A DNA stretch of 32,186 nt from Actinomycetota bacterium (lineage in GTDB: Bacteria > Actinomycetota > Actinomycetes > S36-B12). The notes beneath the pieces were generated by a model. That model did not search any database and was not told the DNA's origin. It worked only from the letters and a program-made list of their open reading frames with translations. Numbering within the stretch: position 1 is the first letter of the stretch; every line of letters starts with the position of its first letter. Positions 13,534 to 20,544 of the stretch are shown in pieces. A program made the translations under genes and the position numbers. Where the stretch lies: the NCBI GenBank assembly GCA_029978585.1, contig JAPOJD010000008.1, forward strand, positions 1 to 32,186, given 5' to 3'.

Positions 13534-13902
13534 ATGGCACGCGTGAAGAGGGCGGTCAATGCCCACAAGAAGCGCCGTGAGGTCCTCGACCAGGCGAGCG
13601 GCTACCGGGGCCAGCGCTCACGGCTGTACCGCAAGGCCAAGGAGCAGGTCACCCATTCGCTCGTCTACGCGTTCAACGACCGCAAGGACCGCAAGGGGGA
13701 CTTCCGCCGCCTGTGGATCCAGCGCATCAACGCCGCGGTCCGTGCCCGCGGGATGACCTACAACCGTTTCATCCAGGGGCTCAAGGCCGCGGGAATCCAG
13801 GTCGACCGCCGCATGCTCGCGGAGATCGCCGTGAGCGATCCGCAGGCCTTCGACTCCCTGGTGGAGACGGCGCGAAAGGCCCTCCCGGCCCCGGCCGCCT
13901 GA
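13534..13902 (+). CDS. rplT: 50S ribosomal protein bL20
   Basis: [75 protein letters not shown] upstream of ATG. Confidence 0.97.
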
Positions 13903-13910
13903 ACCGCTCC

Positions 13911-14744
13911 ATGTCTGAGCCGGAGATCACCTCGCCGAGGTCGGCGAGGGTGACCGAAGTCCGGCAGTTGCACGACCGAAGGCACCGCGCCCGGCGCGGT
14001 GCCTTCGTCGTGGAGGGGCCCCAGGCCCTCGACGGAGCGGTCGCGGAGCCGAGCGCGAACGGCCTGGGGCGAGTGAGCCAGGTGTACGTCGACACCGAGG
14101 CGCTCGGGAGGCATCGCGCGCTCATTGCGCGGGCCCGACGCTCGGGGGCAACGGTGACGCTGGTGTCGCCGGATGTCCTGCGGGCGATGGCCGAGACGCG
14201 ACAGCCGCAGGGGATCGTGGCCGTGTGCCCGCTGGTGACCGTCGAGGCGGCGTCGGCGTTCGCCGCGGCGGGAGATCTCGCGGTCATCCTCGACGGAGTC
14301 GCCGATCCCGGCAACGCTGGAACGATCATCCGCACAGCCGACGCTCTCGGGGCCGGTGCCGTCGTCCTCACCGAGGGATCGGTCGACCCCCACAACGGCA
14401 AGTGTGTGCGCTCGACCGCAGGGTCGATCTTCCACGTCGCGGTCGCGCAGGGCGTCCCCGTGCGCTCGGCGATCCAGCAGGCGCGCTCCTGCGGCTTTGA
14501 CATCCTGGCGGCCGATGCGCGGGCGGACGTGGTCCTCGGGACTGCTGAGGCCGATGAACTCCTGGCACGACCGGTGGCATGGGTCTTCGGCAGCGAGGCC
14601 CACGGGGTCAGTCCCGATGCGCGCGCGGAGGCTGTCCGCACGGTGGCCGTGCCCATGGCCGGACGAGCCGAGAGCCTCAACCTTGCGGCCGCCGCCGCGA
14701 TCTGCCTCTACGCCACGGCCCTGGCGCAGCACCGCGGAGCATAG
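13911..14744 (+). CDS. SpoU/TrmH family RNA methyltransferase (TsnR/RlmB-like)
   Basis: ITSPRSARVTEVRQLHDRRHRARRGAFVVEGPQAL, LDGVADPGNAGTIIRTADALGAGAVVLTEGSVDPHNGKCVRSTAGSIFHV, WVFGSEAHGVSPDA, VPMAGRAESLNLAAAAAICLY. Confidence 0.93.
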   Translation: MSEPEITSPRSARVTEVRQLHDRRHRARRGAFVVEGPQALDGAVAEPSANGLGRVSQVYVDTEALGRHRALIARARRSGATVTLVSPDVLRAMAETRQPQGIVAVCPLVTVEAASAFAAAGDLAVILDGVADPGNAGTIIRTADALGAGAVVLTEGSVDPHNGKCVRSTAGSIFHVAVAQGVPVRSAIQQARSCGFDILAADARADVVLGTAEADELLARPVAWVFGSEAHGVSPDARAEAVRTVAVPMAGRAESLNLAAAAAICLYATALAQHRGA

Positions 14745-14827: not shown

Positions 14828-15592
14828 ATGGCGCACTATCGGATGTCAGTCCTCGAGGAGAAGGGCTACGTCGTCCTGTCGCGGGATGGCACGGTCATCG
14901 ACCCTCGCGAGTGGCAGGATCTCGAGTACGTCGACTGGAAGTCCTCAGGCGATACTCGCTTCGCTCCCCTCGCCTCGGCGTACGGCGGTATCGACTGCAA
15001 TGCCTTCTGGCACTTCGACCCGCCCAAGCCCGACCGGGATGGCGTGTGGATCCCGTCCCAGGTGGCCGTCGCTCCGACGATCGCGGGGCTTGCCCAGGAG
15101 TCGGGGGCCAATGTGGGCAGGGTGCGCATCATCGAGTTGCAGCCGAACACCTACGCCGATGCGCTCTACAACTCCCATCTGGACGACAACAACCGACTTA
15201 CGCGTGACGGCGATGGCTGGGTGGTCAGGGGATTCCGCAATCTCACCGACGATGCCGGTTCGTTCCTGGTCCTGCGAGAGGACGTCCGGGATCCAGCCAC
15301 GGAGACGCGAATTCCCCTTCCCGCCGGCGCCCGGGTCATCGTCGATTCCGAGCGGATGTGGCACTCGGTGTGGCATCCGGGTCCGCTGCCGAGGTACTGC
15401 CTGATCACGTCGTACGAGTCCGGTCCCGAGCTCGAGAAGTGGATCTTCGAGAACGATCCCACCACCTATGTGGATGTCGCGGTCCTCGACGAGGGATTCG
15501 CGAGCGCGATGGAGGCTGAGGCGCAGGATCGCCGCGCGAAGCGCACGGCGTTCTACGGCTACGACCCGACCAACGTCATGTCGGAGGCTTAG
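14828..15592 (+). CDS. Predicted Fe(II)/2-oxoglutarate-dependent dioxygenase-like protein, paralog A
   Basis: 254 aa. H117-L-D119 in YNSHLDDNNR, H179 in MWHSVWHPG, R189 in PLPRYCLI: the HxD-(~60)-H-(~10)-R pattern of double-stranded beta-helix dioxygenases. High similarity to the next gene. Confidence 0.6.
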   Translation: MAHYRMSVLEEKGYVVLSRDGTVIDPREWQDLEYVDWKSSGDTRFAPLASAYGGIDCNAFWHFDPPKPDRDGVWIPSQVAVAPTIAGLAQESGANVGRVRIIELQPNTYADALYNSHLDDNNRLTRDGDGWVVRGFRNLTDDAGSFLVLREDVRDPATETRIPLPAGARVIVDSERMWHSVWHPGPLPRYCLITSYESGPELEKWIFENDPTTYVDVAVLDEGFASAMEAEAQDRRAKRTAFYGYDPTNVMSEA

Positions 15593-15690
15593 CCCGGGGG
15601 TGGATATCCGGGGAACCTCCCGGGGACGTGACGCACGACACACGCGATCGCTGGCACGCGGCTGGCCCTTCCATGGGGGAGAATAGGGGG

Positions 15691-15714
15691 GCTCCGAGGC
15701 GGCCGCCCCGGAGC
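15691..15714 (+). repeat. Inverted repeat / hairpin upstream of paralog B
   Basis: GCTCCG-A-GGCGGCCGCC-C-CGGAGC: outer 6-bp stem, one mismatch, inner palindrome. Confidence 0.5.
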
Positions 15715-15736
15715 GTTCCAGGGAAGGACCCGCCGG

Positions 15737-16498
15737 ATGTCCTACGTGAAGTTGCCGGAGTTCGAGGAGTCGGGCTACGTCGTCGTGGATTCCTACGACC
15801 AGTCCCAGGATCCGCAGGAATGGCGGGACATCGAGTTCGTGGACTGGAAGTCCTCAGGCGAGACCCGGTTCGCTCCGCTCGCGTCGGCGTACGGCGACAT
15901 GGAGTGCAACGGCTTCTGGCATCACGATCCCCCGAAGACCGACAAGGACGGAGTCTGGGTTCCCGCCAACGCGGCCAGGGCACCGCGGCTCAAGGCGCGC
16001 GCCGAGGAGCCGGGCGCGAACATCGGTCGTTGCCGCGTCATCGAGCTCCAGCCCAATGACTACGCGGACTGCATCTGGAACCTCCACCAGGACGACAACA
16101 ACCGTCTCAACCCGGAGGGAACCGGCTGGATCGTGCGCGGGTTCTTCAACCTGACGGACAATCCCGACTCCTACATGATCCTGCGCGAGGACAAGAACGA
16201 TCCCGCCACGGAGACGCGCATTCCGCTGCCGGCCGGGACACAGGTCATCATCGACACGCAGCGCCTGTGGCACGCGGTGTGGCATCCCGGCCCGGAGCCG
16301 CGTTACTGCCTCATCACCTCCTGGGAGTCCGGTCCCGAGCTCGGCGGATGGATCCGGGAGCGCCATCCGCGTACCCGAGTGGAGAATGCCCCTCTCGACC
16401 CGGCATTCCTGGAGGCCGCCCAGGCCGAGGTGGCCCGACGTCAGGCCGCGAAGGAGGCGGCGTCGGGGGCTATGGTCGACGTGATGAGCGAGGCCTGA
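15737..16498 (+). CDS. Predicted Fe(II)/2-oxoglutarate-dependent dioxygenase-like protein, paralog B
   Basis: 253 aa; H117-Q-D119 in WNLHQDDNNR, H179 in LWHAVWHPG, R189 in PEPRYCLI; aligns without gaps to paralog A through the core. Confidence 0.6.
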   Translation: MSYVKLPEFEESGYVVVDSYDQSQDPQEWRDIEFVDWKSSGETRFAPLASAYGDMECNGFWHHDPPKTDKDGVWVPANAARAPRLKARAEEPGANIGRCRVIELQPNDYADCIWNLHQDDNNRLNPEGTGWIVRGFFNLTDNPDSYMILREDKNDPATETRIPLPAGTQVIIDTQRLWHAVWHPGPEPRYCLITSWESGPELGGWIRERHPRTRVENAPLDPAFLEAAQAEVARRQAAKEAASGAMVDVMSEA

Positions 16499-16617: not shown

Positions 16618-17543
16618 GTGACCACGGCCGCTCCCGCGACCGTCTCCGATGACGACGTCCTCGATGCCCTAGAGGCCGAGGCACTGCACGTCTATCGAGA
16701 GGTGGCCGGCGCCTTCCGGCGTCCCGTCCTGCTGTACTCCATCGGCAAGGACTCCAGCGTGCTCCTGCACCTGGCGCGCAAGGCCTTCCACCCAGCGCCG
16801 ATCCCCTTCAAGGTCATGCACATCGACACGACCTGGAAGTTCCGCGAGATGATCGAGTTCCGCGAGCGCATGGCGCGCGAGCTGAACCTCGACCTGAAGG
16901 TCCAGACGAATCTCGCGGCTGTCGCCGAGGGCGTGACCCCGTTCACCCACGGAACCCACGAGTACACCCGGATCATGAAGACCGTGGCCCTGCGCGAGGG
17001 CCTGGACGAACTCCAGGCCGACTGCGCGATCGGCGGAGCCCGTCGCGACGAGGAGAAGTCGCGGGCCAAGGAGCGGATCTTCTCGCTTCGCGAGCCCGGT
17101 CATCGCTGGGACCCGCGCAAGCAGCGGCCGGAGTTCTGGCGGACCGCAAATACCGCGCTTGCCGAGGGGCAGACGATGCGCGCGTTCCCGATCAGCAACT
17201 GGACCGAGTTCGACATCTGGCGCTACATCCGGCGGGAGAACATCCCCATCGTCGATCTGTACTACGCGCGACCGCGCCCGGTCGTGTGGCGCGAGAACAC
17301 CTGGATCATGGTGGACGATGACCGCCTCCCGCTGAGGGAGGGCGAGGTTCCCGAGATGCGCAGCGTCCGCTTCCGCACCCTGGGGTGCTACCCGCTCTCG
17401 GGCGCAGTGGAGTCCACGGCGGCCGACCTGGACACCCTCATCGCCGAGATGCTCGAGAGCAACGTCTCCGAGCGGGCCGGGCGACTCATCGACGGCGAGG
17501 GTGGGGGCTCGATGGAGGCCAAGAAGGCGGAGGGCTACTTCTG

Positions 17544-17544
<1 letters not shown>
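16618..17544 (+). CDS. cysD: Sulfate adenylyltransferase subunit 2
   Basis: [84 protein letters not shown] start after AAAGAGG. Confidence 0.96.

Positions 17545-20544
<3,000 letters not shown>

Follow-up and report, generated by a model that had tools for sequence, protein, structure and literature searches.

The oxygenase gene pair

Two adjacent genes on the forward strand of the 32,186-nucleotide stretch of actinobacterial DNA analysed here (the window) encode predicted Fe(II)/2-oxoglutarate (2OG) oxygenases, at the positions and with the lengths given in the initial annotation (Table 1). Both start with ATG. For copy 1 a longer open reading frame, starting at 14579, is also open, but the ATG at 14828 is favoured because orthologs have the same start (MKHYRMSVLEE..., MSHYRMPILEE...). 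BLASTP aligned the two proteins with 151 identities in 254 positions (59%), 75% positives and E=4e-116, a likeness that, judged by the sequences, is far beyond chance. More than half of the positions are thus identical, as had been estimated by eye. The expected gap-free alignment was found for the core; over the full length there is a single gap of one residue, near the C-terminus. The genome of the window contains exactly these two copies.

Table 1. Features of the oxygenase gene pair and its neighbours in the window
Feature	Position	Strand	Remarks
SpoU-family rRNA methylase	13902..14744	+	upstream, conserved; plays no part in the function
Copy 1	14828..15592	+	subfamily 1; 254 aa; tail YGYDPxxVxSEA; predicted Fe(II)/2OG oxygenase
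Copy 1 R98-x-R100	15119..15127	+	aligned with the substrate-carboxylate arginines R95/R97 of proline 3-hydroxylase; invariant in 107 homologs
Copy 1 H117-L-D119	15176..15184	+	predicted Fe(II) ligands
Copy 1 R134	15227..15229	+	aligned with R122 of proline 3-hydroxylase
Copy 1 H179	15362..15364	+	predicted distal Fe(II) ligand
Copy 1 R189	15392..15394	+	predicted 2OG C5-carboxylate arginine
Copy 1 C-terminal Ser-Glu-Ala	15581..15589	+	
Copy 2	15737..16498	+	subfamily 2; 253 aa; predicted Fe(II)/2OG oxygenase
Copy 2 H117-Q-D119	16085..16093	+	predicted Fe(II) ligands
Copy 2 H179	16271..16273	+	predicted distal Fe(II) ligand
Copy 2 R189	16301..16303	+	predicted 2OG arginine
Copy 2 C-terminal Ser-Glu-Ala	16487..16495	+	
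CysD-like, sulfate adenylyltransferase small subunit	16618..17544	+	PAPS_reduct domain
CysNC-like, sulfate adenylyltransferase GTPase fused to APS kinase	17553..19433	+	

Predicted fold and active site

The double-stranded beta-helix proposed in the initial annotation is the fold predicted by AlphaFold2 and by Foldseek searches of the models against the PDB. The models had pLDDT values of 90.4 (25 homologs) and 91.2 (62 homologs), and both matched Fe(II)/2OG oxygenases of known structure. L-proline cis-4-hydroxylase ranked first for both models (7.2e-7 and 1.4e-7). Proline 3-hydroxylase, HIF prolyl hydroxylases and Cpz10 were listed for both and AspH for the first model, and nearly all remaining PDB matches listed were 2OG oxygenases. 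TM-scores of the matches were moderate, about 0.5. Matches among viral structures included Asp/Asn/Pro hydroxylase domains of phages.

The HxD motif (HLD in copy 1, HQD in copy 2, residues 117-119), H179 and R189 in PRYCLI are all where they had been placed, and in both copies H179 stands in the context (M/L)WH(S/A)VWHPG. Of the core strands in the model, the last but one carries H179 and the last starts with R189, the arrangement expected for a double-stranded beta-helix. The fold and the conservation of the triad across homologs had been named beforehand as points on which the oxygenase reading could fail, and both spoke for it. H117, D119, H179 and R189, as well as R98, R100 and R134, were invariant in 107 distinct sequences; this set was collected by a motif containing D119, and the remaining invariant residues lie outside the collecting motif. 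The HxD...H triad was also invariant in a set of 62 sequences. In 25 homologs gathered without any motif filter, W37, S39, G41, F45, F60, W61, H117, D119-R123, R134, R176, H179, H183 and R189 did not vary, so the sequence blocks that had been quoted as strongly conserved are indeed conserved. The predicted fold and the invariant triad with R189 support the assignment to the Fe(II)/2OG dioxygenases at family level.

It might be argued that the proteins have kept the fold and lost catalysis, and now serve in binding or sensing, given that oxygenase activity and substrate are both predicted from the sequence. However, none of the 107 divergent homologs departs from the three predicted Fe ligands or the 2OG arginine, and we regard a loss of catalysis as extremely improbable.

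Family placement and distribution

Neither window protein gave a match above noise in Pfam, NCBIfam or PHROG or a meaningful sequence match to any solved structure in the PDB, and the proteins therefore belong to an unnamed subfamily. This agrees with the initial annotation, with the nuance that the branch adjoins PF05118 (Asp_Arg_Hydrox) and that one member just passes the gathering cut-off of that family. Both window proteins fall short of this cut-off (22.6 bits). When 62 members were scanned singly, 25 matched PF05118 and no other family was matched repeatedly; the best member reached 23.0 bits and most stayed below the cut-off. A profile built from four actinobacterial PF05118 domains aligned with the oxygenase family over 134 columns (hhalign, E=3.8e-5). 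The same profile matched cis-4-proline hydroxylase (1.3e-12), proline 3-hydroxylase (6.9e-8) and, weakly, AspH, and direct comparison of the oxygenase family with the proline hydroxylases and Cpz10 gave 8.3e-5; these E-values are single-comparison values and hhalign probabilities were only 61-71%. By profile comparison the family is thus placed as a divergent branch just outside PF05118, beside the Asp_Arg_Hydrox / proline hydroxylase group. The earlier description as aspartyl/asparaginyl hydroxylase-like is right as a statement of kinship, PF05118 being the sole Pfam model matched by many members. The suggestion of a new family holds for a subfamily that lacks a model, but not in any wider sense.

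Relatives were present in 50 of the 59 related genomes and in 15 genomes of a phylum-wide sample of 297. A genome-wide scan found at least 558 relatives. The best 80 of these were actinobacterial or uncultured-bacterium records, many of them titled Nanopelagicales, Microbacterium, Agreia, Herbiconiux, Cryobacterium or Subtercola. Among the matches listed (the best 80 of at least 558) the subfamily was seen only in Actinomycetota, where it spans several groups. The distant lineages of the phylum, whose proteins lack the C-terminal tail described below, are here called Acidimicrobiia-like, a label of our own. An origin from phages or plasmids was also considered and rejected, as viral contigs, phages and plasmids contained no relatives. 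The sequence from a record titled Bifidobacterium breve MAG (L062) clustered with those of Nanopelagicales and uncultured actinobacteria; the record is probably misnamed.

A conserved C-terminal tail

The most unusual feature of the subfamily is its conserved tail. Exactly Ser-Glu-Ala (SEA) ends 84 of the 107 homologs, after a linker of variable length: from core residue L202 to the C-terminus the tailed proteins count 46-84 residues. In subfamily 2 the residues preceding SEA vary strongly. Codons for the tail serine come from both the AGY and the TCN family, and each of the three stop codons occurs, which points to selection on the protein and rules out a cause at the DNA level. The distant Acidimicrobiia-like homologs stop before the tail, so it must be dispensable for the basic chemistry, and one branch of Microbacteriaceae has other, mostly acidic ends. 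Only three changes on the tree are needed to explain presence and absence of SEA, and no clear change in the active site accompanies its loss.

The two models, made from different but alignable proteins, differ by only two stretches of added strand, residues 118-119 and 250-251. By elimination the tail (M250, S251) would most simply be paired with the HxD motif, which, at a pLDDT of about 42, is a lead only. A C-terminal tag shared with other proteins, as in cargo or degron signals, was rejected: the only proteins in the genome of the window with an (I/L/M)SEA end before a true stop were the two oxygenases, the search covering these three preceding residues. SEA could be a built-in substrate or pseudosubstrate whose acidic end docks to active-site arginines, either in the same molecule or in a partner subunit. 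The enzyme would then cap or hydroxylate itself, and the paralogs might act on each other's tails; we consider this specific proposal unlikely.

Paralog history

Copy 1 falls in a clade of 18 sequences with the tail YGYDPxxVxSEA (support 92). Since this clade is sister to the remaining tailed family, the pair goes back to an old duplication that produced two sister subfamilies. With the thresholds applied, the paralogs were separated at core positions 116, 174, 175, 177 and 180, all of them close in sequence to a predicted iron ligand. As the paralogs differ most cleanly beside the predicted iron ligands, they probably act on different substrates. Several genomes of the same genus retain copy 2 only. 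In one locus (L011; G006:C3:64773-64898) a remnant of 43 residues with 57% identity is located just upstream of copy 2 and is probably a decayed copy 1.

Gene neighbourhood and sulfur context

Neighbouring genes were named by Pfam in the window and by clustering in the other loci. The gene order in Nanopelagicales is SpoU, oxygenase(s), cysD, cysNC, pheS, pheT, with the cys genes missing in some loci; in 14 loci cysD directly follows an oxygenase gene. The genome of the window had no match to sulfite reductase and three matches to sulfotransferases. In the 35 genomes of its family, counted by hand, a full APS kinase was found in 34, a sulfotransferase match in 33 and no sulfite reductase match in 28, which suggests that in some Nanopelagicales PAPS serves sulfation and not sulfur assimilation.

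Three genomes of the phylum sample (L157, L159 and L160; minus strand) contained a PF05118 domain followed in one frame by a sulfotransferase-like stretch, confirmed for L160 by Pfam (PF05118, 7.5e-12; Sulfotransfer_3, 2.5e-24). In 20 loci of Microbacteriaceae (L078, L089-L128) a gene whose start resembles a DUF262-type protein, a name given by eye, adjoins the oxygenase gene, mostly on the opposite strand. Inspection by eye of the Acidimicrobiia-like loci listed revealed no conserved operon partner.

Conceivably, the oxygenases add a hydroxyl group to a metabolite or surface component, which sulfotransferases then sulfate with PAPS supplied by the adjacent cysD-cysNC genes. The 14 loci with cysD next to the oxygenase, the enzyme repertoire of the window's family and the PF05118 domains in frame with sulfotransferases would fit such a module. 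However, adjacency to the cys genes was seen in this one family only, with the two genes on separate contigs in other families of the order and the oxygenase in other settings in Microbacteriaceae, and a role in sulfation therefore stays improbable. Moreover, in some loci the oxygenase genes lie directly before pheS, and spacings of 119-144 bp between the genes are no evidence of an operon.

Substrate and proposed mechanism

Clues to the substrate come from three arginines. In proline 3-hydroxylase R95, R97 and R122 bind the carboxylate of the substrate, according to docking and structure analysis (PMC9968057). Aligned through the intermediate PF05118 profile, they correspond to R98, R100 and R134, so that the assignment runs via an intermediate family rather than a bound structure. 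In AspH, R688 contacts the side chain of the substrate Asp (PMC6817910), and by eye this residue appears to correspond to R134. These alignments with carboxylate-binding arginines predict an amino acid or another carboxylate-bearing substrate, though they do not name it.

Such a substrate might be part of a protein. The enzymes would then resemble AspH or the ribosomal oxygenases and modify Asp, Asn or another residue of a cellular protein, perhaps one of translation. Both the kinship with PF05118, which includes AspH, and the apparent match of R134 to R688 are in line with this idea, and a target in translation would suit the SpoU-oxygenase order conserved in Nanopelagicales and the rplT-SpoU-pheST neighbourhood. 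Against it, hydroxylases of free amino acids (proline) are the best matches by both structure and profile, and the proteins have no TPR or other docking domain. Microbacteriaceae and Acidimicrobiia-like genomes, moreover, lack this neighbourhood, which therefore looks like inherited gene order. We regard a protein substrate as possible but doubtful.

We favour, with a probability of roughly 0.6, the view that the two copies are paralogous Fe(II)/2OG oxygenases of an unnamed actinobacterial subfamily whose substrate is an amino acid or bears a carboxylate, with the tail as a lid or pseudosubstrate and with different substrates for the two paralogs. In such enzymes H117, D119 and H179 would bind Fe(II), R189 the C5 carboxylate of 2OG, and R98, R100 and R134 the carboxylate of the substrate. 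They would hydroxylate an amino acid, or else a side chain or peptide end that bears a carboxylate, with release of succinate and CO2. Ser-Glu-Ala, on its flexible linker, would probably act in cis or between subunits, and the paralogs would probably each accept a substrate of their own.

Significance

The subfamily is real, unnamed and apparently intact. With an intact predicted active site and no family model, its members would normally stay hypothetical proteins. They occur in most of the related genomes sampled and in cultivated Microbacteriaceae. Their function can be tested by way of the strict C-terminal tripeptide and the set of arginines, which point to targets for mutation, to a first type of substrate and to a possible self-regulating tail. 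New here are the SEA tail, the invariant R98, R100 and R134 as putative counterparts of the carboxylate arginines of proline 3-hydroxylase, the paralog-separating positions beside the predicted iron ligands, and the cysD-cysNC context.

Comparison with known hydroxylases

Among enzymes of known structure the closest are the proline hydroxylases, with L-proline cis-4-hydroxylase (4p7w/4p7x) as the top Foldseek match and type II proline 3-hydroxylase (1e5r) also among the matches. They share with the family the order HxD...H...R, and the distance from His to Arg, 10 residues, equals that between H158 and R168 of proline 3-hydroxylase. However, identity is 14-18% over the aligned region, spacing and insertions around HxD differ, and the DDNNR and YVDWKS[SG]G blocks and the SEA tail of the family were not seen in the aligned stretches.

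Of all Pfam families only PF05118, which includes human AspH, was matched repeatedly. Its domains carry a His two residues after R134 that is not kept in the window family. The Fe site of AspH itself consists of two His without an Asp ligand, and the enzyme has a TPR domain in addition (PMC6817910, PMC10947486), whereas the family has Asp119 and a single domain, and no TPR. On the other hand, Glu617 of AspH mimics the substrate (PMC6817910), a limited precedent for a self-regulating tail.

Cpz10, a beta-hydroxylase of caprazamycin biosynthesis (7v4f) in which a second iron has been reported (PMC9814697), scored highest of the PDB matches listed in TM-score by target length (0.64-0.67). It works in a nucleoside antibiotic pathway, a type of cluster absent from the window locus, but around the distal His it has in common with the family a stretch resembling VDT...HSA / VDT...HAV.
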